From Nocardioides marinus (lineage in GTDB: Bacteria; Pseudomonadota; Alphaproteobacteria; Rhodobacterales; Rhodobacteraceae), in assembly GCA_019801415.1 (NCBI GenBank), contig JAHVJD010000003.1, positions 124,001 through 188,000 of the forward strand: DNA of 64,000 nucleotides, read 5' to 3'. The position numbers and the translations under genes are program-made. Within the stretch, counting starts at the first letter, position 1. Each line of letters starts with the position of its first letter. Below, piece after piece: positions 2,742 through 46,118 of this stretch. The notes beneath the pieces are model-generated. The model saw only the letters and a list, made by a program, of their open reading frames with translations. It did not search any database and was not told where the DNA came from.

Positions 2742-2756
2742 TTACGGCAATTTTAA
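2742..2756. promoter_or_regulatory. CtrA-like box between fliK and flgJ
   Basis: TTAC-N7-TTAA, 7 of 8 bases of the TTAA-N7-TTAA CtrA pattern, in the divergent fliK/flgJ intergenic region. It lies 53 bp before the fliK ATG and 62 bp before the flgJ ATG. Reading toward fliK, TAAGTC follows 11 nt after the box, a plausible -10. The box also sits in an inverted repeat GGTTA-N9-TAACC. Regulation by CtrA is inferred from pattern and placement. Confidence 0.5.
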
Positions 2757-2817
2757 CCGGTTCCACGGCAAACTGTAAAAACTCGATGAAGTTCGATGAA
2801 CAACCGGAGAACCGGAC

Positions 2818-3111
2818 ATGTCAGATCTACTGACCACACATATGCAGACCGCGCAGTCATATACCCCGGTCCGCAAACCACCCGCCGACCCATTGCGAGA
2901 GGCCGCGGTGGAACTGGAAGCATCCTTTCTGGCGCAGATGCTGAAATCGGCGGGCCTTGGCGAATCACGCGAAGGGTTCGGCGGCGGTGCAGGCGAAGAT
3001 CAGTTTTCCAGCTTCCTCGTTCGCGAACAGGCCAACCAGATCGCCCGCTCGGGCGGCATCGGCCTCGCGGAATCCCTGTATCACGCATTGAAGGAGACCC
3101 AAGGTGACTAA
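2818..3111 (+). CDS. flgJ: FlgJ-like rod-binding protein (no muramidase domain)
   Basis: A 97-residue protein matching the N-terminal rod-binding domain of FlgJ: PLREAAVELEASFLAQMLKSAG at residues 24-45, then a QFSSFLVREQANQIARSGGIGLAESLY-type helix region. It would cap the growing rod in the periplasm. The peptidoglycan hydrolase half found in enterobacterial FlgJ is absent, as is usual in alphaproteobacteria, so a separate hydrolase must open the wall. An ATG at 2818 follows a good GGAG site. It overlaps the next gene by 8 nt and is divergent from fliK. Confidence 0.88.
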   Translation: MSDLLTTHMQTAQSYTPVRKPPADPLREAAVELEASFLAQMLKSAGLGESREGFGGGAGEDQFSSFLVREQANQIARSGGIGLAESLYHALKETQGD

Positions 3112-3463
3112 ATCCGAACCGCAGCAGCTCACGGATGAGCTGGACCAGATCCTGGACCGCGAACGCGCCGCTTTGATGAAAGGCGACCTTGGCAAGCTGG
3201 AAGACCTGCTCGCCAAGAAAGAGAAGATCATCGCTAAGCTCAACACGATCTCGGACTTGGAGCGCGACACGCTGGCCAGGGTCCAGACCAAGGTGTCGCG
3301 CAATCAGGATCTCCTCGACAGCGCCATGGAAGGCATCCGCAGCGTCGCTGCACGCATGGCCGAACTGCGCAAGATCCGCAAAGGCCTGGACGTCTATGAC
3401 CAGACCGGTCGTCGCACCCGTTACGGAACCCGCAACATCGGAAAGCTGGAGAAAAAGGCCTAA
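3104..3463 (+). CDS. flgN: FlgN-like flagellar chaperone
   Basis: A 119-residue, strongly helical, charged protein of the FlgN/FlgK-FlgL export chaperone type. The N-terminal half (residues 5-70) is a long coiled-coil-like helix with LDQILDRERAALMKGDLGKLEDLLAKKE, the classic FlgN layout, and the tail is basic. It would hold hook-filament junction proteins export-competent in the cytoplasm. It starts with GTG inside the 3' end of flgJ, so the two are translationally coupled. Sequence conservation in this family is low, so the symbol is a likely assignment rather than proof. Confidence 0.7.
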   Translation: MTKSEPQQLTDELDQILDRERAALMKGDLGKLEDLLAKKEKIIAKLNTISDLERDTLARVQTKVSRNQDLLDSAMEGIRSVAARMAELRKIRKGLDVYDQTGRRTRYGTRNIGKLEKKA

Positions 3464-3667
3464 ATGCAATTTGGAGAAAATTCTACGGAAGCAAATCTCC
3501 GCATTAGCACTCCCTTAGCAACTGTTGGGCCAATGTCTCCTTGCACCTGATGACGGGTGGCGCGGAAGCCGGACGGTGGAACGCACAGTCAGAAAGACGT
3601 CACAAAACGCCCCCTGAGGGCACAGAATAATAGGGGCCAAAGTGCTCCACAGCTAAAGGAAAAAGCT
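3464..3667 (+). promoter_or_regulatory. Flagellin upstream region / long leader
   Basis: 204 nt without a gene before fliC. A TTAG-N7-TTAG element at 3504-3518 is a weak (6 of 8) relative of the CtrA box and lies 149 bp before the ATG, much further than the other boxes in this window. If it marks the promoter, the flagellin mRNA would have a leader of well over 100 nt, which could be the target of the FlaF/FlbT post-transcriptional control known from Caulobacter. The ribosome site AAGGA is at about 3656. Confidence 0.35.
3504..3518 (+). promoter_or_regulatory. Weak CtrA-like element upstream of flagellin
   Basis: TTAG-cactccc-TTAG, 6 of 8 matches to TTAA-N7-TTAA, with the same form (TTAG-N7-TTAG) as the element before motA. 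The hexamer CAATGT follows after 12 nt, a poor -10 match. I regard it as suggestive only. Confidence 0.3.
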
Positions 3668-4477
3668 ATGACCAGCATTCTGACCAACAACGGCGCAATG
3701 GTTGCTCTGCAGACCCTGAAGTCGGTCAACAACAACCTGGAAGACACCCAGAACCAGATCTCCACTGGTAAAGAAGTTGGTAGCGCCAAGGACAACTCCG
3801 CTGTCTGGGCCATCTCCAAGTCGATGGAATCGGACATCCAGGCATACGAAGCCGTGTCTGACGCTCTGGACTTTGGTGAAGCCACCGTTGCTGTTGCGTC
3901 CTCGGGCATGGAACAGATCGTTGAAACCCTGAAAGACATGCGTGAACTGGCAGTCGCAGGCGTTTCGCAGAACGTCGACCACGACAAGATCGAGGCCGAC
4001 CTGGCGAAGAAGCGCGAGCAGATCGAATCCATTATCGACTCCGCTTCGTTCAACGGCGCCAACCTGCTGGATGACAACGTCACCGCGCAGCTGGACGTTC
4101 TGGGCGGCCTGGACGCGGCCAGCGATACCATCACGATCACCGGTATCGACAGCGCGTCCAGCCTGAACACCGCCGGCATGACCTCGCTGACCAGCGCCAA
4201 CGCGGCGACTGTTCTGTCGGAAATCGAGACCATGCTGTCCTTCGCAATCGACAGCGCAGCCCAGCTGGGTGCCGACAGCAACCGTCTGAGCGACCAGAAC
4301 GACTTCGTGTCGAAACTGAACGACTCGCTGAAATCCGGTGTCAGCACCATGGCCGACACCAACATGGAAGAAGCGTCGGCGCGACTGAAAGCACTGCAGA
4401 CCCAGCAACAGCTGGCGGTGCAGTCGCTCTCCATCGCGAACCAGGCGCCTTCGACCCTGCAGCAGCTGTTCCGTTAA
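3668..4477 (+). CDS. fliC: Flagellin (filament subunit)
   Basis: The filament protein, 269 residues. The N-terminal D0/D1 helices (MTSILTNNGAMVALQTLKSV onward, with the motif SGKEVGSAKDN near residue 40-50) and the C-terminal D1/D0 helices (ending IANQAPSTLQQLFR) are intact, with a short variable centre, so this is a small flagellin lacking large outer domains, typical of Rhodobacterales. The ATG at 3668 has AAGGAAAA ahead of it; a longer upstream reading frame has no flagellin character. flaF and flbT follow directly, the usual alphaproteobacterial arrangement. Codon use is visibly more biased than in neighbours, fitting high expression. Confidence 0.97.
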   Translation: MTSILTNNGAMVALQTLKSVNNNLEDTQNQISTGKEVGSAKDNSAVWAISKSMESDIQAYEAVSDALDFGEATVAVASSGMEQIVETLKDMRELAVAGVSQNVDHDKIEADLAKKREQIESIIDSASFNGANLLDDNVTAQLDVLGGLDAASDTITITGIDSASSLNTAGMTSLTSANAATVLSEIETMLSFAIDSAAQLGADSNRLSDQNDFVSKLNDSLKSGVSTMADTNMEEASARLKALQTQQQLAVQSLSIANQAPSTLQQLFR

Positions 4478-4485
4478 CAGCTCCA

Positions 4486-4510
4486 ACCGGGGCGCTGACA
4501 GCGCCCCGGT
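4486..4510 (+). terminator. Strong hairpin after flagellin
   Basis: A 10-bp G+C-rich perfect stem (ACCGGGGCGC with its complement) and 5-nt loop begin 9 nt after the fliC stop, followed by a pyrimidine-rich but T-poor tail. It could terminate most fliC transcripts, or stabilise the fliC mRNA end while letting some transcription reach flaF and flbT. Confidence 0.6.
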
Positions 4511-4555
4511 CTTCCCCTCTCAGAGAATCTGAAGAATAAAACGTTAGGAAAACAC

Positions 4556-4927
4556 GTGAATGCCCTTCTGAAGGCGAAGAGTGCCTATTCGGCGGCAAAG
4601 GCCCCGACCCGGACAGCAAAGAATTTCGAATACGAAGTGATCGCCCGCATTACGCGTCGAATGATCACATCAGCGCAACAAGGCCGCGACGGGTTCCAGG
4701 ATCTGGTTGCCGCCCTGAATGACAACCGCAAACTCTGGTCCATTTTCACAGCCGATCTTGCCAACAAGGGAAACCCCTACCCGGACGAGTTGAAGCTGAG
4801 CCTCTTCGAACTGGCGGAATTCACAAGACAACACACCAGCAAGGTACTGCAGCGCAAGGCCAACGTACGCCCGCTGGTGGAAATCAATACGGCCATCATG
4901 CGTGGCCTCCGCAGCGGAGCATCCTGA
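4556..4927 (+). CDS. flaF: Flagellar biosynthesis regulator FlaF
   Basis: FlaF is an alphaproteobacterial protein needed for flagellin synthesis or secretion; with FlbT it balances flagellin translation. The 123-residue product shows the family core: AYSAAKAPTRTAKNFEYEVIARIT at residues 11-34, the GFQDLVAALNDNRKLW segment near 48-63, and the LFELAEFTRQHTSKVL helix. It lies 78 nt after fliC beyond a strong hairpin and 2 nt before flbT. Start chosen as the first in-frame initiator consistent with family length, a GTG. Confidence 0.93.
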   Translation: MNALLKAKSAYSAAKAPTRTAKNFEYEVIARITRRMITSAQQGRDGFQDLVAALNDNRKLWSIFTADLANKGNPYPDELKLSLFELAEFTRQHTSKVLQRKANVRPLVEINTAIMRGLRSGAS

Positions 4928-4929
4928 AT

Positions 4930-5334
4930 ATGAGCGGACTTGTCCTGAAACTCGCCCCCAAGGAGCGTGTCCTTGTGAACGGTGCGGTGATCGAAAACGG
5001 CGACCGTCGCAGCCGCCTGTCGATTGTCACCCCGGACGCCAACATCCTGCGCCTGCGCGATGCGATCCATCCGGAAGAAGCCAATACCCCGGTGCGCCGG
5101 GTGTGCTACGCGGCGCAGCTGATCCTTTCCGGCGACGCCGACCCCGAAGAAGAGCGCCTGCCGATGCTGCGGCGCATCGAGGAGCTGAGCCAGGTCTTCA
5201 CCGACCCCGACAGCCGCGCCTCCCTGGCCGAGGCGACCGAAGCCCTGATCGGCGACAATCACTATCGCTGTCTCAAGGCACTGCGCACGCTTCTGGCCCG
5301 CGAAGACCGCCTGTTTGCGGTCCGCCCTTCCTGA
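4930..5334 (+). CDS. flbT: Flagellin synthesis repressor FlbT
   Basis: FlbT is the post-transcriptional repressor that, in Caulobacter, binds the 5' leader of flagellin mRNA and destabilises it until the hook is complete. The 134-residue protein starts with the family signature SGLVLKLAPKERVLVNGAVIENGDRRSRL and continues with the YAAQLIL and LFAVRPS regions. It begins 2 nt after flaF, so the two are co-translated. The long leader of fliC in this window is a natural target. Confidence 0.93.
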   Translation: MSGLVLKLAPKERVLVNGAVIENGDRRSRLSIVTPDANILRLRDAIHPEEANTPVRRVCYAAQLILSGDADPEEERLPMLRRIEELSQVFTDPDSRASLAEATEALIGDNHYRCLKALRTLLAREDRLFAVRPS

Positions 5335-5494
5335 TCCATGACCTGGCCGCGGCCCCGCGCCGCGGCGTCGATGCGGCCTCAAACGCCCGCCATGCGGGCG
5401 GCCCATCTGAAACACCACAAGGCTGGTCCGAAAGAGACACAGGGCTTGGAACAAGCCCCCGAGACCTTTCACCGGCCCTTGAAGATCCAAATTG

Positions 5495-5528
5495 AAAAAG
5501 GCTCCCAGAATTGACTGGGAGCCTTTTT
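5495..5528. terminator. Bidirectional terminator between flbT and fliI
   Basis: A perfect 14-bp stem (outer A/T run plus GGCTCCCAG and its complement) with a 6-nt loop, giving a T-tract on both strands. It sits between the convergent flbT and fliI genes and should stop both transcripts. The 160 nt between flbT and this hairpin hold nothing else I can support. Confidence 0.9.
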
Positions 5529-5579
5529 CATTTCAGGGATGATCACAACGTTTCAATGTTGCCAGCGGCAGGGGCAACC

Positions 5580-6908
5580 TCAGCGCCCGGCCTTCGCGCG
5601 GCGCATCAGAAGCAGCAGGCGGTTGAAACTGCTGGTGATGCCCTCCGGGTCTTCACGACCGAAGAACGCGTCCAGCTCGGGCCACAGCTTGACCGCCTTG
5701 TCTAGCACCGCATCGTTGCCCTCGGAATACAGGCCCGCCCGGATCATCACCTCCGACTGCTCATAAGCGCCGAGGAACTTGCGCACATCCTGGATCACCG
5801 CGTTCTCCTCGGCGGTCGCCGCGGCTGGCAGGCTGCGCGAGACCGAACGCGAGACATCAATGGCCGGGAAGCGACCGCGTTCGGCAATTTCCCGGTTCAG
5901 CACGATATGGCCGTCCAGCACGCCGCGCAGGATATCCGCGATCGGCTCATCCATGTCCGAGCCCGCCACCAGAACGCTGAACACGGCGGTGATGTCGCCC
6001 TGATCGGCGCTGCCGGGGCCCGCGCGTTCACACAGGCCGGTAATCAGCGGCGTCACCGAGGGCGGATAGCCGCGCAGGGCCGGTGCCTCGCCCGAGGCCG
6101 CGGAGATCTCGCGATGGGCTTCGGCAAAGCGGGTCACGCTGTCGGCCAGGAACAGCACGTGTTTGCCCTGGTCCCGGAAATGTTCTGCCACGGTCATCGC
6201 CGACCAGGCACAGCGGCGGCGCACAAGGGCAGACTGGTCCGAAGTGGCCGCGACGACAATCGCGCGGCTCATGCCTTCCGGTCCCAGCACGTCTTCGACG
6301 AAGTGATTCACCTCGCGCCCCCGCTCGCCGACCAGCGCCATCACCACCACATCGGCTTCCATGCTTTTGGCCAGTTTCGCCAGGAGCGACGATTTACCAA
6401 CGCCGGAGCCGGCAAAAAGCCCCACGCGCTGACCGCGCACGATGGGGAGAATCGTATTCAGAACCGCCTGCCCCGTTGCCAGCCGCTCTCCCAGCGGTCG
6501 ACGTTCGGCGGCCTTGGGCGGCGCGGCCATCAGGTCGCGCGGCTCCGCCCCCGGCAGCAGCGGCCGCCCGTCGAGCGGCTCGCCGAACGGGTCAATCACC
6601 CGCCCGATCCAATGATCACTGGGCGCGAAATCCGGCGACGGGCGCAACAAAACCGGGTCCCCGATTGCGACACGGTCCGGCGCGCGATCAGGTAACATAC
6701 TGATACTGCTGCCGTTAATCTTCAGGACCTCGCCGTGCAACTCGTCACCGGGGCCACGTCGCAGGATCAGTCGATCACCGATGCGGGCAACCGAGGCCAG
6801 CCCGGAGATTTCGATCTCGCCACCGGCAATCCCGGCGACCCGCCCCATCTGCGTGGTCAGCCGCTTGCCGGCAATCTGGCGGGTCAGTGCAGTCAGCTCT
6901 GCTTTCAT
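5580..6908 (-). CDS. fliI: Flagellum-specific export ATPase FliI
   Basis: The cytoplasmic ATPase that, with FliH and FliJ, delivers substrates to the flagellar export gate. Walker A GSGVGKS is at residues 167-173 and the Walker B region VLFLADSVTRF lies about 90 residues later; the family signature SxSR loop (VSRSVSRSLP) is present near residue 360. At 442 residues it has the usual FliI length. I start it at the ATG at 6908 (MKAELTALTRQIAG); an in-frame extension upstream to 7022 runs through the flgB start and has no family similarity. It is monocistronic and divergent from the flgB operon. Confidence 0.96.
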   Translation of the reverse strand: MKAELTALTRQIAGKRLTTQMGRVAGIAGGEIEISGLASVARIGDRLILRRGPGDELHGEVLKINGSSISMLPDRAPDRVAIGDPVLLRPSPDFAPSDHWIGRVIDPFGEPLDGRPLLPGAEPRDLMAAPPKAAERRPLGERLATGQAVLNTILPIVRGQRVGLFAGSGVGKSSLLAKLAKSMEADVVVMALVGERGREVNHFVEDVLGPEGMSRAIVVAATSDQSALVRRRCAWSAMTVAEHFRDQGKHVLFLADSVTRFAEAHREISAASGEAPALRGYPPSVTPLITGLCERAGPGSADQGDITAVFSVLVAGSDMDEPIADILRGVLDGHIVLNREIAERGRFPAIDVSRSVSRSLPAAATAEENAVIQDVRKFLGAYEQSEVMIRAGLYSEGNDAVLDKAVKLWPELDAFFGREDPEGITSSFNRLLLLMRRAKAGR

Positions 6909-6940
6909 TGCGGCGGTCTCCGTTGGCGTCCTGAAAACAA

Positions 6941-6973
6941 TTTCTAAAGGAATCGGGGTTAAGCCTTGATTGA
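6941..6973. promoter_or_regulatory. CtrA-like box and -10 between fliI and flgB
   Basis: On the fliI strand the order is TCAA-N7-TTAA (6959-6973, 7 of 8 matches), exactly 12 nt, then TAGAAA (6941-6946) as a -10, 51 bp before the fliI ATG. On the other strand the box is only 23 bp before the flgB start, so it fits fliI better. A CTTGAT-N8-ATCAAG inverted repeat overlaps it at 6965-6984. Confidence 0.5.
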
Positions 6974-6996
6974 AATCGATCAAGGGAGAAACCCTG

Positions 6997-7386
6997 GTGT
7001 TCACAGAATTGAACGTATTCAAAATTGCCTATTCCATGGCAACCCATGCCGGCACCCGCCAGGCACTGGTGTCACAGAATATCGCCAATGCCGACACGCC
7101 TGGCTACCACGCCAAGGACATCAAGCCCTTCACGGAAGTTTTCGCCGCAGGCGCACGCCCCGGCAGCATGATCGCCACCCGCGACAGCCACCTCAATGGC
7201 AGCGCAGGCAGCGGAATGGATTGGGCGATCACCAGCTCTGATGCAGGCAGCGACCCCAATGACAACTCTGTCTCGATCGAAACCGAGATGCTGAAAGGGG
7301 TCGAGGTGGCACGCCAGCACAAGCGGGCGATGGCGATCTACAAGTCCTCCATGAACATCCTGCGCGCAAGCCTGGGCAAACCCTGA
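6997..7386 (+). CDS. flgB: Flagellar proximal rod protein FlgB
   Basis: FlgB is the first proximal rod subunit in the periplasm. The 129-residue product has the rod/hook N-terminal signature at residues 20-45 (SQNIANADTPGYHAKDIKPF) and a C-terminal helix ending SLGKP. I start it at GTG 6997, 6 nt behind a strong GGGAGAA site; the TTG further upstream would give nine unlikely residues. It leads the operon flgB-flgC-fliE-fliQ-flgF-flgG-flgA-flgH-fliL-like, all on the same strand with very short gaps. Confidence 0.94.
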   Translation: MFTELNVFKIAYSMATHAGTRQALVSQNIANADTPGYHAKDIKPFTEVFAAGARPGSMIATRDSHLNGSAGSGMDWAITSSDAGSDPNDNSVSIETEMLKGVEVARQHKRAMAIYKSSMNILRASLGKP

Positions 7387-7400
7387 GGAGGAGCTGATCG

Positions 7401-7793
7401 ATGAGTGAATTTTCCAGAGCCCTTTCCGTCACGGCCAGCGGTCTCAAGGCCCAGGCCGCCCGTCTGCGTCACGTGTCGGAGAACATCTCCAACGCCGATA
7501 CCCCCGGCTACCGCCGCAAGACGGTCCCCTTCGAATCGGTGCGCGAGCTGCAGACCGACGTGGAACATGTCCGCACCGGCCGGGTCACCCTGGACCGCAG
7601 CGACCTCGAAGAAATCTACGACCCGTCGCATCCGCTGGCCAATGAAAGCGGCCATTACGAAGGCTCCAATGTCGATCTGATGATCGAGATTGCCGACGCC
7701 CGCGAGGCCCAGCGCAGCTACGAGGCAAACCTGAAAATGTTCGAGCAGACCCGCTCGATGTCCTCCTCTCTCATGGAACTTCTGAGACGATAA
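7401..7793 (+). CDS. flgC: Flagellar proximal rod protein FlgC
   Basis: A 130-residue proximal rod subunit. The axial-protein N-terminus (ALSVTASGLKAQAARLRHVSENISNADTPGYRRK, residues 6-40) and the C-terminal heptad-rich helix (YEANLKMFEQTRSMSSSLMELLRR) are both complete. AGGAGG precedes the ATG. Located 14 nt after flgB and 27 nt before fliE, as in most flagellar rod operons. Confidence 0.96.
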   Translation: MSEFSRALSVTASGLKAQAARLRHVSENISNADTPGYRRKTVPFESVRELQTDVEHVRTGRVTLDRSDLEEIYDPSHPLANESGHYEGSNVDLMIEIADAREAQRSYEANLKMFEQTRSMSSSLMELLRR

Positions 7794-7820
7794 TTCCCCC
7801 AAGCCAATTGGAGATCCAGA

Positions 7821-8117: not shown

Positions 8118-8120
8118 GCC

Positions 8121-16295: not shown

Positions 16296-18782
16296 TCAGT
16301 TGACCTTGGCCGCCCCCTGCGCGCTGCCGACACGGCGCAAAAGGTCGGTGATACCGCCGCGCGTGCCCTCGCTGCTTTCGACCAGCGCCCGGGCGTGGGC
16401 CAGCGGCGACAGGCCCTCGGGGTCGCGGGCGGTCTCGCTGATCTGGGTGGTCACGGTGGCGACCGCCTTGAACTGGGGTTCTTCGTCCGTGTTGATCGCC
16501 TCGATGGCGTCGAGGTTTTCCGAATGCCAGAACCCGCGCGCCGCCGCATTGGCGTCGTCCTCGGCCAGCAGATACTCACCGGCGCGGCCATATTCGCCAT
16601 TGCGCCACAGGGCTTCGGCGCGCAGACGGTTGGCCTCGGTGCCCTCCAGCCCCATCAGCTCGACCAGCGCCCGGTGCGGTTTGCCCAGTTCCAGAGCCGC
16701 TTCCGCCATCATCAGGCGGCGGCGCTCGTCCTCGGGCTCAAGCGACAGCTTGTTCAGCATTGTCTGTGCCTGCTCGGCAAAGCCGAGATCCAGCAGGCGA
16801 CGCGCCACATCCGCGGCAACCGGCGCGGCCTCGCCCGCCGTGGCCTGGCCCGAGAACACCAGCGCGTATTGCAGGAAGGTCACATCATCGGCGCGCTCGG
16901 TCAGCAGCAGCATCAGCGGCTCGATCGCGGCCACCCGTGCGGCCGGGCCATCACGCTCGGTCAGGTCATCCAATTCCTCGAAGGCATCGTGAAACTGGCC
17001 CATCAGCGCCAGGGAGGACACCTGCGCAAGCCGCAGATCCGCGCCCAGCTCGGTGTCACGGTTTTCCAGTTCATACGAGGCCACGAGGTCCGGCACATCC
17101 GGCGACAGCGCCTTGCGTTCCTTCACGCTCAGCGCGACCAGCTCGATCAGGGCGGTGGGCGCACTGCCCGTCCGCTCGGCCACTTCACTGGTCAGCTCCT
17201 CGGCGACCTTTTCCGTGTCCCCTTCCAGCTCGGCAATGGCAGCTTCAGCCAGGTTGATCTCCGGCACATCCTCGACACCTGTCCGGTCGACGGCGCGCAG
17301 GATCGCTTCGGCCACGTGATGATCGCCGGTTTTGGCAAACATCTTGCTCACCCGCGGGCCAAGATGCACGCGCAGATGCACCGGCAGCTTCGAGAACGCC
17401 AGCTGAATGGCATCCGAGCTGGCGTTGCGCTTGATTTCGCCATCGGCAAGCGCGCCCCAGAGCGCGGTGTCGCCTTCGCAGCCCTGCTGCCCCGAGAACG
17501 GGTGGTTCACAGGCAGCGATTCGCCGTCGAGCAGGCTGGCCATAGCGGTCAGCAGCGCCGCGTCGGGGTGGTCGCGATCCTGCTCTGGCAGGATTTCCAG
17601 CATCGAACGCGATTCGGCACCAAAGCCGAAGTACAGATAGATCCGCGACAGGGCGTAGACACTGGCCGGGTTCACATCGTCGAATTCCCGCACCAGGGCG
17701 CTGCGCAGGGCAGACACCTGGTCCGCAAACGGGCTGTCATCGCCCCAGGTCTGGATGGCAACGGCGCGATCCGGCAGACAGTGCATCTGCTGGTTTGCCG
17801 CCCCGTCCAGCCCCGCCTTCAGACCGGTTTCACGGTCGATGGCCGAGGTCACGGCGATATGATCGAGCGGGTTCAGGGGCCGGTCGCTGCGCCCCAGCGG
17901 ATCCAGCCCGGCAATCGCGGCCTCTGGCAGGCCGTCCGCGCCGACCTTCAACAGGCCCTGCCGCGCGGCACGGCCAATCTGCTGCAGCAGGCGCTGCTCC
18001 GATTCATTGACGACGGCCGCCCGTTCGGTTTCCACCATGTCGAGCAGGAAACCGGCGTCCGGCATGCGGCTGGCGGCCACCTGCGGATCGGCCTCGGGCT
18101 CGACAGGCTTCGGCGTCTGGATCGGCTGGCTGTCGCGGCCTTGGGCCAGCATCACATCCCCCAGATCTTCAATGCGCGCCTCGGGCGGCGCGGCAACGGG
18201 GGCGGGGCTTTGCGACGTCTGTTCCGTCGCGGCCTGCGGGGTCACCCGGGTGCTGGCGGGCTGGCTGGCTGCCGTCGCCAGCTCCAGCGCCATCCGCGCA
18301 TCGGTGGCCGCGCCGCCCGAGAACCGGAACCTGTAGCCGGACCCAGGCGAGGTCAGGGGCAGCACGCCACCGCCAAGAGGCGCCGAGGATGTCGCCACGG
18401 TCGCGCCGCGCGGCACCGGCGTATCAAGGTCCCGGATGTCCACCACCAGGTAACCGTTCTGCTGCACGTAGGACGTCACCTTGCAGTCACAGCCCAGTTG
18501 CAGACGCAGCGGCTGGCCGGGGCCGATCTGCCCCAGGGATTGCAGCCGGGTCCGCGGGATCATGCGGAAGACGCGGGAGGTATCGAACACGGCCTCCGGC
18601 GCATCGATGTTCACCGTCGCCGTCTTGCCACTCTGGGTCAGGGACCAATCCGCGTTTCCGGGCAGTCGCATCACCAGCCGGGTAAAGCCGTCATGCTCGC
18701 CCGAGCGGGTCACGATGGTCTGTGCCTGGGCACCGACCGCCGTCAGAAGGGTAGCTGTAAGGGCAATTGCACGCCAGATCAT
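16296..18782 (-). CDS. 828-residue periplasmic protein coupled to motA (possible MotC-like motor factor)
   Basis: Not a protein I can name. A Sec signal peptide covers residues 1-20 (cleavage after GAQA). Residues 25-125 look beta-rich and AMIN-like (GEHDGFTRLVMRL at 28-40, YLVVDIRDLD at 111-120) with Cys98 and Cys100; residues 125-245 are a Pro/Gln/Thr/Ala-rich linker; residues 245-828 are helical and repeat-like, as in TPR or HEAT-type solenoids, with Cys335 and Cys435. Four cysteines in an exported protein suggest disulfides. Its ATG overlaps the motA stop (ATGA), so it is made with the stator. With a MotE-like gene just upstream of motA, it could be the counterpart of rhizobial MotC, the periplasmic partner of MotB; that is inference from context. 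Confidence 0.85.
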   Translation of the reverse strand: MIWRAIALTATLLTAVGAQAQTIVTRSGEHDGFTRLVMRLPGNADWSLTQSGKTATVNIDAPEAVFDTSRVFRMIPRTRLQSLGQIGPGQPLRLQLGCDCKVTSYVQQNGYLVVDIRDLDTPVPRGATVATSSAPLGGGVLPLTSPGSGYRFRFSGGAATDARMALELATAASQPASTRVTPQAATEQTSQSPAPVAAPPEARIEDLGDVMLAQGRDSQPIQTPKPVEPEADPQVAASRMPDAGFLLDMVETERAAVVNESEQRLLQQIGRAARQGLLKVGADGLPEAAIAGLDPLGRSDRPLNPLDHIAVTSAIDRETGLKAGLDGAANQQMHCLPDRAVAIQTWGDDSPFADQVSALRSALVREFDDVNPASVYALSRIYLYFGFGAESRSMLEILPEQDRDHPDAALLTAMASLLDGESLPVNHPFSGQQGCEGDTALWGALADGEIKRNASSDAIQLAFSKLPVHLRVHLGPRVSKMFAKTGDHHVAEAILRAVDRTGVEDVPEINLAEAAIAELEGDTEKVAEELTSEVAERTGSAPTALIELVALSVKERKALSPDVPDLVASYELENRDTELGADLRLAQVSSLALMGQFHDAFEELDDLTERDGPAARVAAIEPLMLLLTERADDVTFLQYALVFSGQATAGEAAPVAADVARRLLDLGFAEQAQTMLNKLSLEPEDERRRLMMAEAALELGKPHRALVELMGLEGTEANRLRAEALWRNGEYGRAGEYLLAEDDANAAARGFWHSENLDAIEAINTDEEPQFKAVATVTTQISETARDPEGLSPLAHARALVESSEGTRGGITDLLRRVGSAQGAAKVN

Positions 18783-19679: not shown

Positions 19680-19711
19680 AGTTTAGGCGAGTCGTCCTAA
19701 GGAAAGACTAA
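19680..19711 (-). promoter_or_regulatory. CtrA-like box and -10 before motA
   Basis: Read toward motA: TTAG-N7-TTAG (19697-19711, 6 of 8), 11 nt, then TAAACT (19680-19685). This lies in the 83-nt gap between the MotE-like gene and motA, so motA may have its own promoter inside the fliL operon. Confidence 0.45.
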
Positions 19712-21381: not shown

Positions 21382-21414
21382 TTCATAACCTGCGAGGGAC
21401 TAACCGAATGTTAA
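21382..21414. promoter_or_regulatory. CtrA-like box and -10 between fliL and fliF
   Basis: CTAA-N7-TTAA at 21400-21414 (7 of 8). Toward fliL: TTAA-N7-TTAG, exactly 12 nt, then TATGAA (21382-21387), 47 bp from the fliL ATG to the near edge of the box. Toward fliF the box is 58 bp before the GTG start. This is the best -10/box combination on a divergent region in the window. Confidence 0.55.
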
Positions 21415-30171: not shown

Positions 30172-30204
30172 CAGCTAGCGCAAGAGCGATTAACGGGCGG
30201 CTAA
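30172..30204 (-). promoter_or_regulatory. CtrA-like box and -10 before flgE
   Basis: Read toward flgE: TTAG-N7-TTAA (30190-30204, 7 of 8), exactly 12 nt, then TAGCTG (30172-30177), with the near edge of the box 57 bp before the ATG. Same geometry as the fliL, fliI and motB promoters. Confidence 0.5.
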
Positions 30205-30256
30205 CAGATCAAATATGACCTATCTGTCAGCCGCCGCTTCCAGCAAATTCAGCCGG

Positions 30257-31122: not shown

Positions 31123-31155
31123 GGGATAGCAGCCAGGCTGTTAAATGTGCCTTAA
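31123..31155 (-). promoter_or_regulatory. Perfect CtrA-type box and -10 before motB
   Basis: TTAA-atgtgcc-TTAA at 31141-31155 matches all 8 positions of the TTAA-N7-TTAA CtrA site. Toward motB it is followed after exactly 12 nt by TATCCC (31123-31128); the near edge of the box is 47 bp before the ATG at 31093. It separates motB from the hemN gene behind it. Confidence 0.65.
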
Positions 31156-31198
31156 CAATTAAACTTGCCGGCAGTTCTTCGGCGCAGGGGGCGGCGGA

Positions 31199-32769: not shown

Positions 32770-32856
32770 GCCCAGGTGGCGGAATTGGTAGACGCGCTAG
32801 CTTCAGGTGCTAGTGTCCGTATGGACGTGGAGGTTCGAGTCCTCTCCTGGGCACCA
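32770..32856 (+). tRNA. tRNA-Leu(CAG)
   Basis: Acceptor stem GCCCAGG/CCTGGGC, D-arm with GGTAGA, anticodon stem CTAGC/GCTAG enclosing the loop TTCAGGT (anticodon CAG), a long variable arm (GTCCGTATGGAC) as in class II tRNAs, and T-arm GGTTCGAGTCC. Discriminator A at 32853; CCA is encoded at 32854-32856. Reads CUG, the most used Leu codon in this G+C-rich genome. Confidence 0.97.
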
Positions 32857-37793: not shown

Positions 37794-38752
37794 CTGTTTC
37801 GGTTCTGGGCTCGGGGGCCTTCGGCACCGCGCTGGCGATCTCATTGGCCGGAAACGGGCCGGTCACCCTGTGGGCGCGCAACGCCGGGGCCGCCGCCGAG
37901 ATGCAGCGCGACCGCTGCAACACGGCCCGGCTGCCGGGGGTCACCCTGCCCGAGGCGCTGACCGTCACCGCCGATCTGGAGGCCGCGGCGGCCGCCGACG
38001 TGCTGCTGCTGGCGGTGCCGATGCAAAAGCTGCGCGGCGCGCTGATTGACCACCGCGGCCTGCTGGCGGGCAAGACGCTGGTTGCCTGCTGCAAGGGGAT
38101 TGAGCTGAACACCGGATTGGGCCCGATCGCTGTGATGCGCGATGTGCTGCCGGACGCCGCCCCGGCGCTGCTGACCGGGCCGAGCTTTGCCGCCGACATC
38201 GCCCGTGGCTTGCCGACCGCGCTGACGCTGGCCTGCGCCGATGCCGACCGTGGCCGCGACTTGCAGCAGCAACTGACCACCGCGAACCTGCGGCTCTACC
38301 GCACCACCGACACCATCGGCGCCGAGCTGGGCGGCGCGCTGAAGAACGTGATGGCCATCGCCTGCGGGGCCGTCATCGGGGCCGGCCTCGGCGACAGTGC
38401 CCGCGCCGCGCTGATGACCCGCGGCTATGCCGAGATGCAGCGCATGGCGCTGGCCTGCGGCGCGCGGCCCGAGACGCTGGCCGGGCTGTCGGGCTTTGGC
38501 GATCTGACGCTGACCTGCAGCTCGGAGCTGTCGCGCAACTACCGGCTGGGCCTGTCGATCGGGCGCGGCGAGAGCTTTGATGCCTCGCTCACGGTGGAGG
38601 GCGCCGCCACCGCCCGCGCCGTGGCGGCACAGACCGAGAAGCTGAAACTGGAGATGCCGATCACCCGGACGGTAACCAATTTGTTGGATCAGGAGTTGAC
38701 GATCGAGGAGGCAGCGGCCCATTTACTTAAAAGACCGCTAAAAGAGGAATAA
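37790..38752 (+). CDS. gpsA: NAD(P)-dependent glycerol-3-phosphate dehydrogenase
   Basis: Makes sn-glycerol 3-phosphate from dihydroxyacetone phosphate for phospholipids. The 320-residue enzyme starts with a Rossmann motif [16 protein letters not shown], has LVACCKGIE and the LTGPSFA motif (residues about 95-135), the catalytic-lysine region [12 protein letters not shown] and the [11 protein letters not shown] signature. tsaD and gpsA adjacency, with a 4-nt overlap, is common in this order. Confidence 0.97.
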
Positions 38753-40175: not shown

Positions 40176-40214
40176 AAAAAGGCGCCGCCGGATTGCTCCG
40201 GCGACGCCCTTTTT
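40176..40214 (-). terminator. Terminator of ahcY
   Basis: AAAAAGGCG-C-CGCCGGA pairs with TCCGGCG-A-CGCCTTTTT-like sequence, a long G+C stem with one internal mismatch and A/T ends that give T-tracts on both strands, 16 nt after the ahcY stop. The rest of the 39892-40230 gap shows no gene. Confidence 0.88.
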
Positions 40215-40230
40215 GTGCGGGTAGGACCCG

Positions 40231-41619: not shown

Positions 41620-41816
41620 AGTTTGCTCCATTCCGGTTACGAGTTCACTTGCAGCAGGGCGTAGCACCGCAGGTGTTTATATTCAACGAAGATACCCGCA
41701 ACCGGGACACGGCGGCCCGGCATCCAACCTGGACAGGATGTTCAGAAAGTCGCGAAGATACGCCGCGGTGGCAAAATCACCGAGGCAAACTGGCCGCGCC
41801 AGAGGGGCGCAAGACG

Positions 41817-42131
41817 TCAGCTGGGGGTTCCCGGCTCGGCTTCGGAGTCCGGAATATGGAAGAACGAGGAGCCGGTCGCCACGACGCAGCTGATCCCATT
41901 CGGATGCGTGACCAGAACGGTAAAGGTACCGGTTTCATCGGATGACCAGACCTCGATCACGGTGGCCTGGGGCCGGGTTGTCTGCAATCCGCCGGCGGTC
42001 AGCCGCTCGGAATATCCCGATTGCAGTTTTTCCGTCATGGCGGTGCGGTCGCCACAGCTGGCTGCCAGGGCAGGCGGTGCGGTCGCAGCCATACCGAACA
42101 ACAGTGATACCCCTAATATACGCTTGAACAT
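41817..42131 (-). CDS. Small exported protein, function unknown
   Basis: A 104-residue product with a clear Sec signal peptide (residues 1-24, MFKRILGVSLLFGMAATAPPALA, cleaved after ALA) and a mature part with two Cys (at the start ASCGDRTAM and in the GISCVVAT segment) that could form a disulfide. The SCGDRTAMTEKLQSGYSERLTAGG segment is the most distinctive. Not recognised. Lies 197 nt upstream of ahcY on the same strand; I see no shared function. Confidence 0.75.
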   Translation of the reverse strand: MFKRILGVSLLFGMAATAPPALAASCGDRTAMTEKLQSGYSERLTAGGLQTTRPQATVIEVWSSDETGTFTVLVTHPNGISCVVATGSSFFHIPDSEAEPGTPS

Positions 42132-42360
42132 GGCAATCTCCTTTCCTGTGCATGCCACGTGAGGAAAAGGGGTTGCCGCGAAAGGGGGCGCGGAGCCCCT
42201 TCATACTAATGATATTGGGTCGAACAGCGCCGGTTTCAAACTCACGGGGCGTAAACACCGCGTATGGTGGCCTGCGGTTTCGGTCCGTTCCGCGCGCGAC
42301 AGGACCATTGCCCGCACCCCGATCAGCGGGTAGGCACGGCCTTATGTCACAGTGATCAGG

Positions 42361-42966
42361 ATGAAATTCATGCCCGCAAAACCTGCCCGCGCCTGGCAGC
42401 GGATGCTGTCCGGCCGCCGCCTGGACCTGCTGGATCCGACCCCGATGGATATCGAGATCGAGGACATCGCCCACGGGCTGGCCTTTGTGGCGCGCTGGAA
42501 CGGGCAGACGCGGGGCGATTTCGCCTATTCGGTGGCGGAGCATTCATTGCTGGTCGAGGAGATCTTTACCCGGATGCAGCCCAAGGCGCCGGTGAAATGG
42601 CGGCTGGCGGCGCTGCTGCATGACGCGCCGGAATATGTGATCGGCGACATGATTTCTCCGGTCAAAGCCGCCGTCGGCCCCGGCTACGGTGAGCTGGACC
42701 AGCGGCTGACGGCCGCGATCCACATCCGCTTTGGCCTGCCCGCAGCGCTGCCCAAGACGGTGAAGGCGCAGATCAAGCGCGCCGACAAGGTCAGCGCCTG
42801 GATGGAAGCGGTGCAGATCGCCGGATTTTCAGAGGCCGAAGCAACCAAGTTCTTTGGCCGCCCCAACGCGGAGATCACCGGCAGCCTGGACATTCACCTG
42901 CGCCCGCCGGTCGAAGTGCGGCAGGATTTCGTGGCGCGGCATCATCAGCTGATCGCACAGATGTAA
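42361..42966 (+). CDS. HD-domain hydrolase (YfbR/5'-nucleotidase-like)
   Basis: A 201-residue HD phosphohydrolase. Metal-binding motifs are H in AEHSLLVEEIF, HD in LLHDAPEYVIGDMISPVK, and D in KRADKVSAWMEA, the order seen in YfbR-like 5'-deoxynucleotidases. Likely removes phosphate from nucleotides. ATG 42361 chosen; ATG 42370 is an alternative. Monocistronic and convergent with regA. Confidence 0.83.
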   Translation: MKFMPAKPARAWQRMLSGRRLDLLDPTPMDIEIEDIAHGLAFVARWNGQTRGDFAYSVAEHSLLVEEIFTRMQPKAPVKWRLAALLHDAPEYVIGDMISPVKAAVGPGYGELDQRLTAAIHIRFGLPAALPKTVKAQIKRADKVSAWMEAVQIAGFSEAEATKFFGRPNAEITGSLDIHLRPPVEVRQDFVARHHQLIAQM

Positions 42967-43329
42967 CAGCGCGGTCCGCCCAAGGCCTCTGCCCGGTCGG
43001 TCAACGCGTCTTTCAGTACTGCTGTATGCTGCCGGGTCCCTGCGGGATGTGAAGCAAGGCAAGAATGGCGGCGCCGCCACGGGGCGGAGGTGGACGGGCG
43101 TATCCGCCCGCGTGCTAAACGTTGTCTCTGCACGGCCCGCACCTGCGGATCCGTTTCCAAGAAAGACCGGGAGTGTCAGGCCCGGCGTTGACCGCGATCA
43201 AGCCCGACCATGACAGACATCGAAGAATACCGCGTAAAGGCAGCGTGCGCCGGTCGCGCAACACCTGCCCGTAGATCGACAGGCGCGGTTCGGGCGCCTG
43301 CCGCAGAGGCGGACAGCAGAGGTTCGGGA
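42967..43329. other. Intergenic region between HD hydrolase and regA, no feature seen
   Basis: 363 nt between convergent genes. A possible small frame from 43210 begins plausibly (MTDIEEYRVKAACAGR) but degenerates into Arg/Ala/Gly-rich sequence and overlaps regA; I do not call it. In Rhodobacter capsulatus hvrA follows regA; nothing like it is here. No clear terminator. Confidence 0.6.
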
Positions 43330-43884
43330 TCAGCGCGGGCTGCGCTTGGCCAGGATACGCTGCAGGGTGCGACGGTGCATGTTCAGGCGCCGCGCGGTCT
43401 CTGACACATTGCGATCGCAGAGCTCGTAGATGCGCTGGATGTGTTCCCAGCGCACGCGGTCGGCGCTCATCGGGTTTTCCGGCGGCGGCGGCAGCTCGTC
43501 GGTGCTGGCCAGGAGCGCGTTCATGATGTCGGTGGCATCGGCCGGTTTCGACAGGTAGTCGGTGGCGCCGATCTTGACCGCGGCAACCGCGGTGGCAATG
43601 GCGCCGTAGCCGGTCAGCACCACCACGCGGCTGTCTGGGCGTTTCTCGCGCAGCACCTCGACCACGTCGAGGCCGTTGCCGTCCTCCAGCCGCAGGTCGA
43701 CCACTGCGTAGGCCGGCGGGCGAGCGGTGGCGATGGCGCTGCCGCCGGCAACCGAACCTGCGGTCTCCACCTCAAATCCGCGCTTCTCCATGGCCTTGGC
43801 CAGACGCCGCAGGAACGGCTCGTCGTCATCGACCAGCAGCAGCGATTTGTCCGGCCCGATCTCCTGCAGAGCAGTTTCCGTCAT
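43330..43884 (-). CDS. regA: Redox response regulator RegA/PrrA/ActR
   Basis: Global regulator of photosynthesis, carbon, nitrogen and respiratory genes in alphaproteobacteria. The 184-residue protein has the receiver domain (SLLLVDDDEPFLRRLAKAM; phospho-acceptor Asp63 in YAVVDLRLEDGNG; Lys in YLSKPAD), the Pro-rich linker ELPPPPENPM, and the highly conserved Fis-type helix-turn-helix (VRWEHIQRIYELCDRNVSETARRLNMHRRTLQRILAKR). Downstream of senC on the same strand, with regB divergent, the standard reg/prr layout. Confidence 0.97.
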   Translation of the reverse strand: MTETALQEIGPDKSLLLVDDDEPFLRRLAKAMEKRGFEVETAGSVAGGSAIATARPPAYAVVDLRLEDGNGLDVVEVLREKRPDSRVVVLTGYGAIATAVAAVKIGATDYLSKPADATDIMNALLASTDELPPPPENPMSADRVRWEHIQRIYELCDRNVSETARRLNMHRRTLQRILAKRSPR

Positions 43885-43961
43885 GCCCGGTCCTCCGCGT
43901 AGGTTTCAAAGTCTCGCCAGAGTATGTCCGGGCGAGGGAAAAGGTCAAACAGCTATCCGCC

Positions 43962-44582
43962 TCAGCTGTTTTCGATGAAGCAGGCGGTTTTGTCGGCCAG
44001 CTGCTCGGGGGTTTCGTCCCGGCGGAAGAACTCAACGAAGCCCTGTTCGGGCAGCACCAGGTAGGAGAAGGTGGAGTGATCGACCAGGTAGTAGTCGTCA
44101 TCGCCCTCGTTCTTGCGGTAGTAGGTCTTGTAGGCCTGGCTGGCGGCCTTGACCTGCGCCTCCGACCCGGTCAGGCCGATCATCTTTTCATGCAGGTTTT
44201 CGGCATATTCTCCAACGACTTCGGGCGTATCGCGGGCCGGATCGACCGAGATGAATACCGGCGTCACGCTGTAGCCGCGCTCGGCCAGCACATCGATGGC
44301 TTCGGCGTTGCGGGCCGCGTCCATCGGGCAGACGTCGGGGCAGAAGGTGTAGCCGAAATAGACGATCGACGGCTCGGTGATCACATCCTTGTCGGTGACC
44401 GTTTCGCCCTTGGCATTGACCAGTTCGAAGGGACCGCCAATGGTGTCGCCGCCCGCCGCGATCTGGCTGCTGCGACATTGTGCCAACCCGTCGCCGCTGT
44501 CCTCGGTGCGGGTCAGGAACCACCCGGCGCCCAGCAGGGAGGCAACGCAAACAGCGGCAAGAATTGCATAAAGACGGGTCAT
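43962..44582 (-). CDS. senC: SCO1/SenC copper chaperone
   Basis: Inner-membrane, periplasm-facing copper-binding protein for cytochrome c oxidase assembly; known as SenC/PrrC in Rhodobacter. The 206-residue product has one N-terminal TM anchor (residues 4-23), the copper motif CPDVC (Cys81, Cys85) and the distal His170 in DDYYLVDHSTFSYLV. Starts at ATG 44582. Between regB (divergent) and regA, where it may pass respiratory redox information to RegB. Confidence 0.95.
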   Translation of the reverse strand: MTRLYAILAAVCVASLLGAGWFLTRTEDSGDGLAQCRSSQIAAGGDTIGGPFELVNAKGETVTDKDVITEPSIVYFGYTFCPDVCPMDAARNAEAIDVLAERGYSVTPVFISVDPARDTPEVVGEYAENLHEKMIGLTGSEAQVKAASQAYKTYYRKNEGDDDYYLVDHSTFSYLVLPEQGFVEFFRRDETPEQLADKTACFIENS

Positions 44583-44698
44583 GTAGTCACACCTATGGTC
44601 AGGCAAGGGTTGTTGATCGTTGTCGGCGGCAGACCTATCAAGAAATGCGACCGATGCAACTGCTGCACGGCGTCACATCTACGGGAGCACCCAGGCCG

Positions 44699-46081
44699 AT
44701 GATCAACCGCCTATTCCGGCTGACAAGCGGGCAGGAACACAGCAACTGGATCCGCCTGCGCACGTTGATCCTGCTGCGCTGGGTCGCCATCACCGGCCAG
44801 CTGGCGGCGATTGCCGTTGCCCAGTACCACTTTCAACTGCAGCTGCCGCTGCTGCTGTGCTACCTGGCGATCGGCGTCTCTGCGGTCGGCAACCTGGTGG
44901 CCATCTTCGCGTTTCCGGAAAACAAGCGCCTGACGGAGTTCGAGAACTTCCTGATGGTGCTGTTCGATCTGCTCCAGCTGGCCTTCCTGCTGTATCTGAC
45001 CGGCGGCTTGAACAACCCCTTCGCGCTGCTGGTGCTGGGGCCGGTGACGATCTCGGCGGCGGTGATGGCACTGCGCTCGACCCTGATCATCGGTGCCACC
45101 GCGATCATCCTGGTGACGCTGATGGCCGAATTCCACCTGCCGCTGCGCACCGAGGTCGGGTTCGTCCTGCGGGTGCCGGATGTCTTCATCTTCGGCAACT
45201 GGATCGCCATCGTCATCGCCATCCTGTTCATCGGCGCCTATTCGTTCCGGGTCAGCAACGAGATGCGGCTGATGTCGGACGCGCTGAGCGCAACCCAGCT
45301 GGCGCTGTCGCGCGAACAGAAACTGACCGATCTGGGGGGCGTCGTGGCCGCCGCCGCGCATGAACTGGGCACGCCACTGGCCACCATCAAGCTGACCAGC
45401 GCCGAGCTGATCGAGGAGCTGGACGACCGCCCCGACCTGCGCGAGGACGCCGCGCTGATCCGTGCGCAGGCCGACCGCTGCCGCGACATCCTGCGCAGCA
45501 TGGGTCGCGCCGGCAATGACGATCTGCACCTGCGCCAGGCACCGTTCTCGGCCCTGGTGAACGAGGCCGCCGAGCCGCATATGCACCGCGGCAAGGCAGT
45601 GCTCTATGACGAAGCACCGCTGGAAGGCGGCGACTTTCAGCAGCCCACCGTGCTGCGCAAGCCGGAGATCATCCACGGGCTGCGCAACCTGGTGCAGAAC
45701 GCGGTGGATTTCTCGCAGTCCACGGTCTGGATCACCGCGGCCTGGGATGATGACACCATCGTGCTGCGCATCAGCGACGATGGCAAAGGCTTTCCGCCGC
45801 AGCTCTTGGGGCGGATCGGAGATCCCTTCGTGCGGCGGCGCAAGGGCGAAAGCGAACACCATCAACGCCCCGAATACGAAGGCATGGGCCTGGGTCTGTT
45901 CATCGCCAAGACGCTGCTGGAACGCACCGGCGCGCGGCTGCGATTCGCCAATGGCCGCGAGGCCGACCACGCCACCGACCGCCGCGGCGCGGTGGTCACC
46001 GTCACCTGGCCGCGCAAGGAAATCGACGCGATGGAGGATGGCGGCCCTGTCATTGGGAAAAATTTACCTTTAGAAATTTAA
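44699..46081 (+). CDS. regB: Redox sensor histidine kinase RegB/PrrB
   Basis: Membrane histidine kinase paired with RegA. The 460-residue protein has six TM helices (residues about 22-185), the quinone-binding motif GGLNNPF at 102-108, the H-box with His221 (AAAAHELGTPLATIKL), the redox-active cysteine Cys261 in ADRCRDILRSMG, and the ATPase N, G1 and G2 boxes (LVQNAVDF, DDGKGF, GMGLGLFIAKTLLE). Start ATG 44699; an in-frame ATG 43-51 nt earlier is possible. Divergent from senC with a 116-nt region that would hold the shared promoters. Confidence 0.96.
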   Translation: MINRLFRLTSGQEHSNWIRLRTLILLRWVAITGQLAAIAVAQYHFQLQLPLLLCYLAIGVSAVGNLVAIFAFPENKRLTEFENFLMVLFDLLQLAFLLYLTGGLNNPFALLVLGPVTISAAVMALRSTLIIGATAIILVTLMAEFHLPLRTEVGFVLRVPDVFIFGNWIAIVIAILFIGAYSFRVSNEMRLMSDALSATQLALSREQKLTDLGGVVAAAAHELGTPLATIKLTSAELIEELDDRPDLREDAALIRAQADRCRDILRSMGRAGNDDLHLRQAPFSALVNEAAEPHMHRGKAVLYDEAPLEGGDFQQPTVLRKPEIIHGLRNLVQNAVDFSQSTVWITAAWDDDTIVLRISDDGKGFPPQLLGRIGDPFVRRRKGESEHHQRPEYEGMGLGLFIAKTLLERTGARLRFANGREADHATDRRGAVVTVTWPRKEIDAMEDGGPVIGKNLPLEI

Positions 46082-46103
46082 CTATTCACTTTTAGGCAAC
46101 CAA

Positions 46104-46118
46104 TTAAACATGAATTAA
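46104..46118 (+). promoter_or_regulatory. Perfect CtrA-type box before the PAS (DivL-like) gene
   Basis: TTAA-acatgaa-TTAA matches all 8 positions of the CtrA pattern and lies 52 bp before the ATG at 46171, the same distance as at the flagellar promoters. A good -10 is less clear (CACCAT is at the expected 12-nt spacing). Confidence 0.6.

Follow-up and report, generated by a model that had tools for sequence, protein, structure and literature searches.

The window (the whole 64,000-nt stretch analysed here) shows a Leisingera-like sequence affinity (Rhodobacteraceae/Roseobacteraceae) and carries flagellar genes together with fliC (3668..4477, plus strand; Pfam Flagellin_N and Flagellin_C), flaF (4556..4927, plus; FlaF, PF07309), and flbT (4930..5334, plus; FlbT, PF07378), the last of which sits two genes downstream of fliC. 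Genes were called with a custom script, and eight gene starts in the window were corrected by hand. A preliminary description of this DNA had listed eight CtrA-type 15-mers by coordinate, and all eight were found at those positions. Those of motB (31141..31155, minus; predicted start ~31116) and divL (46104..46118, plus; predicted start ~46143) match TTAA-N7-TTAA perfectly. One mismatch each is present in the box between the divergent genes fliK (minus) and flgJ (plus) (2742..2756; predicted starts ~2717 and ~2781, respectively), the fliI box in the fliI/flgB divergent region (6959..6973, minus; predicted start ~6934), the single box common to the divergent genes fliL (minus) and fliF (plus) (21400..21414; predicted starts ~21375 and ~21439), and the flgE box (30190..30204, minus; predicted start ~30165). 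The boxes of fliC (3504..3518, plus; predicted start ~3542-3543) and motA (19697..19711, minus; predicted start ~19672; weak) have two mismatches each and read TTAG-N7-TTAG; six of the eight boxes therefore show zero or one mismatch to the double half-site TTAA-N7-TTAA(C).

The oriented distances from box edge to start codon are 58 nt for fliK, 61 for flgJ, 50 for fliI, 48 for motA, 46 for fliL, 58 for fliF, 56 for flgE, 47 for motB, and 52 for divL, compared with 150 nt for fliC and 24 nt for flgB. The distance of about 47-62 bp previously given for the boxes other than that of fliC thus holds in the sense that seven boxes have at least one start codon 46-61 nt away, but flgB, which shares the fliI box region, breaks the rule. 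Since the flgB start, which has a ribosome-binding sequence, is located 24 nt past the box, a transcript starting at +24 would be leaderless. The TA-rich hexamers reported exactly 12 nt past four of the boxes were confirmed (fliI, TAGAAA; fliL, TATGAA; flgE, TAGCTG; motB, TATCCC), and a wider regularity, missing from that description, was identified: an A follows the box at +14 in each of the 11 promoter directions. Among relatives, A occupies +14 in 0.78 of the sequences (mean over eight promoters), whereas the next best offset reaches 0.43.

In other genera, too, the boxes of fliL/fliF, flgE, motB, fliI/flgB, flgJ/fliK, and divL are retained at defined distances. When up to one mismatch was allowed, the fliL/fliF box was found at 76 of 77 fliL loci and 78 of 79 fliF loci (shuffles, ~2%), the flgE box at 33/33 loci, the motB box at 31/34 loci (28 of these with a gap of 44-50), and the fliK/flgJ box at 21/21 same-genus loci. 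The other-genus tests of fliI, divL, and fliC used the best 30 of the 120, 109, and 101 matched genomes, respectively, out of 120 sampled. In that set the fliI box was present with at most one mismatch in 28/30 genera, and its left half was TCAA in 28/30. At flgJ, the left half TTAC was found at the N7 spacing in 11/11 other genera in which FlgJ was found (20 loci fetched). The same test applied to operon-internal starts gave 0/33 for flgK, 0/33 for flgL, 0/34 for flgI, 0/80 for fliH, 1/77 for fliP, 1/78 for orf20819, and 0/73 for orf20355. The motA site, which had been listed as a box, passed the strict test (at most one mismatch) in only 1/77 relatives, but the weak site is conserved in part of them. 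A weak motA box was seen under 28 of 32 genus labels (assigned by hand, with unlabelled loci pooled as Ruegeria), and its right half is TTAA under 25 of these.

Most of the flagellar promoters retain sub-consensus half-sites of their own across the family: TTAA/TTAG at fliL/fliF, TTAG/TTAA at flgE, TCAA/TTAA at fliI, TTAC/TTAA or TTAC/TTAC at flgJ, and TTAG/TTAG at fliC; divL retains TTAA/TTAA. The mean pairwise identity of half-sites and spacers was 0.98 vs. 0.32 at divL, 1.0 vs. 0.49 at flgE, 0.91 vs. 0.42 at fliC, and 0.86 vs. 0.34 at motB.

The fliC box had been set aside as weak, but it is conserved. TTAR-N7-TTAR was found in 24/30 genera (best 30 of 101), mostly ~150 nt upstream of the start codon, with other spacings in 0-2 of 30 and TTAA/TTAA in 0/30, and a box was also found in 28/30 held-out genera. 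In 864 kb of the genome TTAG-N7-TTAG occurs only four times, two of these being the fliC and motA sites. A dismissal of fliC as a false site was rejected, and the sequence comparisons argue that the fliC box, with its own TTAG variant, is a real conserved element. This is a new result; no description of the box and the leader described below was found in the open-access papers searched.

A structured mRNA leader of ~125 nt spans the interval between the predicted start and the fliC ATG (3543..3667, plus). It begins 23-24 nt past the fliC box, where transcription is predicted to start, and the GCA(C/T) of its first hairpin lies at this distance in 23/24 genera. The leader was detected in 85 of the 120 genera sampled; a flagellin start directly follows 82 of its 92 copies. 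The structure was named by eye and then tested, first on 25 genera and then on held-out genera. In the former alignment, which represents recognisable leaders because five of the 30 fliC loci (L273, L278, L282, L285, and L290) with no box or with a leader unrecognisable by eye were omitted, 84.6% of cells were paired, compared with 39-47% when the structure was slid. In 30 held-out genera, a set collected with the structure model and therefore leaning towards the structure in its pair counts, 89.5% of cells were paired vs. 33-52% for slid structures, and the covariation score was 0.397 vs. 0.192 ± 0.013 in shuffles. RNAalifold recovered helices 1, 2, 4, and 5 from the held-out set, with two-sided changes in 16 of 18 pairs, and omitted helix 3, a short helix in which two of the three pairs are invariant and which this set did not confirm. 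The fold comprises four well supported helices and a short GUC-AGAA-GAC hairpin; the ribosome binding site forms its end. A first RNAalifold run on a sequence-only alignment had given 11 pairs partly unlike the named structure, among which U33-A84 to C36-G81 clash with helices 1 and 3. The folding energy of the single leader is no better than that of its shuffles (z = -0.18) and was not accepted as evidence. A search against the 4227 families of Rfam release 15 gave no match up to an E-value of 5 in positions 3400-3800 of the window.

FlbT, a plausible candidate partner of the leader, is encoded by 76 of the 77 genomes that have a leader at flagellin. It is also present in 15 of 18 flagellin-bearing genomes in which the leader was not detected, and its presence hardly discriminates the two groups. 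These counts cover 95 of the 101 genomes among the flagellin matches listed, flagellin rows starting inside the protein having been dropped. FlbT binds flagellin 5' UTRs in Caulobacter according to reviews (PMC4347634, PMC3930126), which speaks against the idea that the leader is a conserved 5' UTR kept for translation initiation without any regulator. That idea draws on the conserved AAAGGA ribosome binding site and on the weakness of the FlbT co-occurrence as evidence (Fisher p = 0.02). It would leave the compensatory two-sided changes, which lie far from the start codon, to be explained, as well as the leader copies at several flagellin genes of one genome (G106), and we consider it unlikely, although with an appreciable chance of being right. 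Since the leader folds and ends in the ribosome binding site, flagellin would instead gain a second, post-transcriptional control.

The preferred reading, to which we assign a probability of about 0.88, is that the boxes are CtrA~P sites, that the fliC box has the same geometry with TTAG half-sites, and that the leader is a second control of flagellin. A Rhodobacterales CtrA is encoded in the genome (G000:C1:349460-350131; 430.6 bits vs. a curated cut-off of 350), and the earlier assignment of the boxes as CtrA-type elements over the -35 region is supported by this gene, by half-site conservation, and by a predicted geometry that agrees with that of Rhodobacter sphaeroides promoters. Mapped CtrA promoters of R. 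sphaeroides are reported to start 23 or 24 nt past the box and to have an invariant A at -11 (PMC6180460), and the geometry observed here (A at +14; foot of the fliC leader 23-24 nt past the box in 23/24 genera), with predicted starts, fits these promoters. Counting against this reading are the failure of motA in the strict test and the lack of genome-wide enrichment of the perfect pattern. In addition, another regulator of the OmpR type could be the one that recognises the TTAG half-sites, with TTAG-N7-TTAG at fliC and motA bound by a protein of the same 11-bp direct-repeat geometry and only the TTAA boxes by CtrA. TTAA/TTAA occurs at fliC in none of 30 genera, and response regulators are numerous in the genome, where the CtrA model has 34 matches, a single one of them above the cut-off. 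However, the TTAG boxes share spacing, the predicted 23-24 nt start offset, and A+14 with the CtrA boxes, the flgE and fliL/fliF boxes each combine one TTAG with one TTAA half, and in P. inhibens fliC is described as relying on the CtrA relay more than any other gene (PMC12363192); a second regulator appears quite improbable.

The density of sites was also compared with chance, and the possibility that boxes are equally dense in coding DNA, which had been named as grounds for abandoning the claim, fails because of the gap between upstream and coding densities. With at most one mismatch, the window contains 6 sites in 3,576 upstream bases, 1 in 58,184 coding bases (at 38727), and 0 in 2,240 other bases (upstream vs. 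coding, binomial 2.5e-7). A same-genome sample of 40 stretches of 20 kb contains 13 in 67,796 upstream, 4 in 699,121 coding, and 7 in 33,083 other bases, and the upstream density of the window exceeds that of the sample (2.4e-4). An origin of the boxes as eye-picked, TTAA-like matches in AT-rich promoter DNA was rejected and has a negligible chance of being correct: in the genome sample, too, upstream DNA is indeed richer than coding DNA in sites with at most one mismatch (0.19 vs. 0.006 per kb), spacers N3 and N10 likewise attain 1.1-1.4 per kb upstream of genes in the window, and the perfect pattern shows no genome-wide enrichment (16 sites vs. 22 for the reversed pattern), but N7 is the richest spacer in upstream DNA of both window and sample, shuffled upstream regions of boxed genes give only 2-6% matches, other spacings are nearly absent at fliC and flgJ, and the conservation data already disfavour it.

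The gene behind the second perfect box (46171..47718, plus), earlier termed a PAS gene, is better named short DivL, a member of the CtrA pathway itself. Its domains are only PAS_7 and PAS_8 (Pfam, E 0.001), no histidine kinase domain was found, and it lies upstream of tsaE. The name rests on this PAS-only content, the tsaE neighbour, and synteny. The box is perfect in 21/21 same-genus genomes and, among best-matching genomes of other genera, perfect in 27/29 with one mismatch in 2/29; of the genomes tested in the 30 genera, four gave no match to flagellin or to flagellar FliI. A short, likewise PAS-only DivL has been described in Rhodobacterales (PMC9430884), and its control by CtrA was proposed in 2010 (PMC2877005); here the box has additionally been tested in 30 genera.

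On the CtrA reading, two TTAA-type half-sites 11 bp apart would position a dimer of CtrA over the -35 region, with RNA polymerase starting 23-25 nt past the box and using a -10 element with its A at +14. One box would drive both directions at fliL/fliF, and probably also at fliK/flgJ, and CtrA would turn on the flagellar operons and divL, a gene of its own pathway. At fliC, the TTAG half-sites would keep this geometry, the transcript would begin at the foot of the hairpin, and the ~125-nt leader would add post-transcriptional control of flagellin, most likely via FlbT. The computation establishes positions, conservation, spacing, A+14, and covariation; binding by CtrA, the start sites, recognition of the TTAG boxes by CtrA, and a role for FlbT or the leader are deduced from these. 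A tentative and somewhat doubtful extension is a 'code of imperfection', in which promoter-specific sub-consensus boxes would impose graded CtrA~P thresholds and thereby determine the order in which genes are expressed, flagellin having the weakest box and an FlbT-read leader as the last checkpoint. The half-site variants offer a way into how one response regulator may order flagellar genes without an FlbD/sigma-54 tier, and the leader is a concrete, structure-defined candidate for an RNA read by FlbT.

The core of this pattern has been described before. Published work on R. sphaeroides fla2 (PMC6180460) covers the same set of six control regions (motB2, flgE2, motA2, fliF2-fliL2, flgB2-fliI2, and flgJ2-fliK2), a box near -35, and a single fliL/fliF box for both directions, so that the arrangement is not new in kind, and divL is known from D. 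shibae; the analysis here adds one genus to this known regulon, and the comparative support for it is strong. The differences are that fliI2 and flgB2 of R. sphaeroides have two sites with half-sites 6 bp apart, whereas the fliI box here is N7, and that no flagellin promoter was found among those described in PMC6180460, whose PWM also matched coding DNA. In D. shibae and P. inhibens, flagellar genes require the CtrA relay, as does divL (PMC4046655, PMC12363192), and boxes were predicted at fliI, flgB, flgE, ctrA, cckA, and divL of D. shibae (PMC4046655), but the portions of these accounts consulted describe no fliC box, half-site variants, or leader. What is new here is the fliC box variant together with the structured leader in most sampled related genera. 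FlbT control of the flagellin 5' UTR in Caulobacter and Brucella likewise involves a flagellin leader, and flaF-flbT likewise adjoin fliC (PMC4347634, PMC3930126), although Caulobacter flagellins are described as sigma-54 dependent (PMC3930126), unlike the CtrA control proposed here. Model R1, run on 190 genomes of the class, gave outside the family one weak match that reads as coding and nothing else, and thus offers no support for homology with the leader of Caulobacter. A Ruegeria study reported no high-similarity sites before motility genes (PMC3692519); in contrast, the Ruegeria fliL/fliF boxes pass the present test with one mismatch.

The window (G000:C3:124001-188000 of a 3.89-Mb assembly) holds a flagellar cluster and, past it, regA, regB, a PAS protein gene and tsaE; FliF relatives sharing 88-90% identity belong to Leisingera species and one MAG. 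A protein of 828 aa without any Pfam match is encoded between the flagellar export genes and motA (16296-18782, minus strand), and a tRNA-Leu(CAG) gene lies immediately past hemN (32770-32856, plus strand). All eight 15-mers resembling TTAA-N7-TTAA, i.e. predicted boxes for the master regulator CtrA, that the preliminary description had reported were recovered, upstream of fliK/flgJ (2742-2756), fliC (3504-3518), fliI (6959-6973), motA (19697-19711), fliL/fliF (21400-21414), flgE (30190-30204), motB (31141-31155), and divL (46104-46118). The common box-to-start distance, claimed with fliC excepted, was likewise borne out, being 46-61 nt in nine gene-oriented directions, with fliC (150 nt) and flgB (24 nt) as outliers. 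The flgB start, past the fliI box (6959-6998), is off the distance rule, yet its 14th base downstream of the box (+14) is A.

Boxes with at most one mismatch are unequally distributed in the window, with 6 in 3.6 kb of upstream DNA and 1 in 58.2 kb of coding DNA (binomial, 2.5e-7), and their upstream density is about ninefold that of upstream DNA across 800 kb sampled from this genome (2.4e-4). That sample contains four box-gene pairs spaced 40-65 nt, one of them with A at +14; in the window, this spacing and A at +14 are combined in eight directions from six such boxes. Perfect TTAA-N7-TTAA sites are not enriched genome-wide (16 sites versus 22 for the reversed control pattern). Over the eight promoters in many genera, the mean frequency of A at +14 is 0.78, the next offset reaching 0.43. 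This position coincides with that of the invariant A at -11 in R. sphaeroides, where 5'-RACE placed the start 23 or 24 nt past the box (PMC6180460). The TA-rich hexamer described earlier survives as a special case of this rule, which is wider than the hexamer.

In up to 80 named relatives, a box with at most one mismatch precedes fliL (76/77), fliF (78/79), flgE (33/33), and motB (31/34), but motA in only 1/77; operon-internal starts in the same relatives have one in 0-1 of 33-80 each, and shuffled upstream regions of the boxed genes match in 2-6%. Among the best 30 matching genera, the fliI box is kept in 28. The flgJ/fliK box is present in 21/21 genomes within the genus; outside it, TTAC-N7-TTAA, TTAC-N7-TTAC, or TTAC-N7-TCAC occurs in 11/11 genera with flgJ found. 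Half-sites are kept while the spacer drifts at divL, flgE, motB, and fliC; the spacers of fliL/fliF and fliI are conserved as well, so the half-sites are less telling there. The regulon is of a known kind, with weightier support than the preliminary description had.

The half-sites are mostly constant gene by gene, namely TTAA/TTAG at fliL/fliF (34/34 genus labels), TTAG/TTAA at flgE (17/17), TCAA/TTAA at fliI (28/30), and TTAA/TTAA at divL (28/30), those of motB being more variable; deviations from the consensus are therefore kept per gene. On a bold reading, the variants would grade CtrA affinity. Alternatively, they may be kept by other constraints, e.g. an overlapping second promoter. The flgE box is immediately preceded by a conserved TTTTATCTG-like element (30205-30214, minus-strand reading) that may be an UP element or an additional site; it is also present in relatives, and motB has a weaker counterpart (31156-31165, minus-strand reading).

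The gene called a PAS gene in the preliminary description is, judged from its domain content and neighbour, a short DivL, in which PAS domains alone were found; tsaE is next downstream. Its box is perfect in 21/21 same-genus genomes and 27/29 other genera, and in the best 30 matching genera it is present in 30 at one mismatch or fewer (28 perfect). Four of these genomes (G039, G075, G090, and G092) have no flagellin among the matches listed and no FliI match above the general-ATPase level, but retain the divL box, which is perfect in three of them and has a mismatch in the fourth. In Rhodobacterales, divL was suggested in 2010 to be under CtrA control (PMC2877005), a link also predicted for D. 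shibae (PMC4046655). One-mismatch boxes also lie upstream of ctrA (gap 60) and sciP (gap 58) in the source genome. The SciP (DUF1153) gene adjoins ctrA (L016:2173-2722), and the ctrA upstream region has an additional TTAACCAT half-site. Elsewhere, a perfect TTAA-N7-TTAA lies 202 bp before the first of two tandem pilin-like genes with identical predicted proteins (L014:1718-1897 and 2211-2390), Flp pilins by eye with only a weak DUF4244 match in Pfam.

The fliC box had been set aside as weak and distant, but TTAR-N7-TTAR precedes fliC in 24 of the best 30 matching genera (TTAG/TTAG in 21, TTAA/TTAA in 0), spacings other than N7 occurring in 0-2/30. In 30 additional genera, picked by the leader described below and not by the box, it is present in 28 (TTAG/TTAG in 26). 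TTAG-N7-TTAG occurs four times in 864 kb of the source genome (both strands), two of these preceding fliC and motA. In P. inhibens CtrA relay mutants, the strongest drop was that of fliC, 64-fold (PMC12363192).

In 23/24 genera, a hairpin foot with the conserved sequence GCA(C/T) lies 23-24 nt past the fliC box and opens a predicted structured leader of about 125 nt, extending to the ATG (3543-3667, plus strand). In a sequence-only alignment of 25 genera, 84.6% of cells are paired in a five-helix structure, as against 39-47% after sliding it; the covariation score is 0.279 versus 0.180 +/- 0.014 in shuffles. Thirty genera outside the model gave 89.5% (33-52% when slid) and 0.397 versus 0.192 +/- 0.013, figures that lean towards the structure because the set was gathered with that model; RNAalifold on this alignment recovered four of the five helices, and 16/18 pairs vary on both sides. 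The leader matches no Rfam family, and no description of the fliC promoter variant or of the RNA leader was found in the open-access literature searched. The model hit 92 places in 85/120 genera of the family, 82 of them within 8 nt of a flagellin start among the flagellin matches listed; run on 190 genomes from the class, it gave hits in three genomes of the family, plus one weak match reading as coding.

Downstream of fliC follow flaF and flbT. Caulobacter FlbT binds flagellin 5' UTRs (reviews PMC4347634, PMC3930126); here, FlbT is present in 76/77 genomes with the leader at flagellin versus 15/18 without it, and thus hardly discriminates leader-bearing genomes. One genome (G106) has 18 flagellin matches among those listed and one FlbT match; its leader is present in five copies, all of them located at flagellin starts. 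Four genomes keep the leader without a flagellin or FlbT match, flgJ and flgN being readable: G090 (L326:7894-8031, minus strand), G075 (L327:5105-5242, plus), G070 (L328:5288-5416, plus), and G061 (L329:6289-6415, plus). In G075 and G070, and by eye in G061, the leader is joined at its end to the initial 31-39 codons of motB, read in reverse; in G090 it is joined to the final part of fliP. These are two distinct deletion scars, each ending at the fliC start codon.
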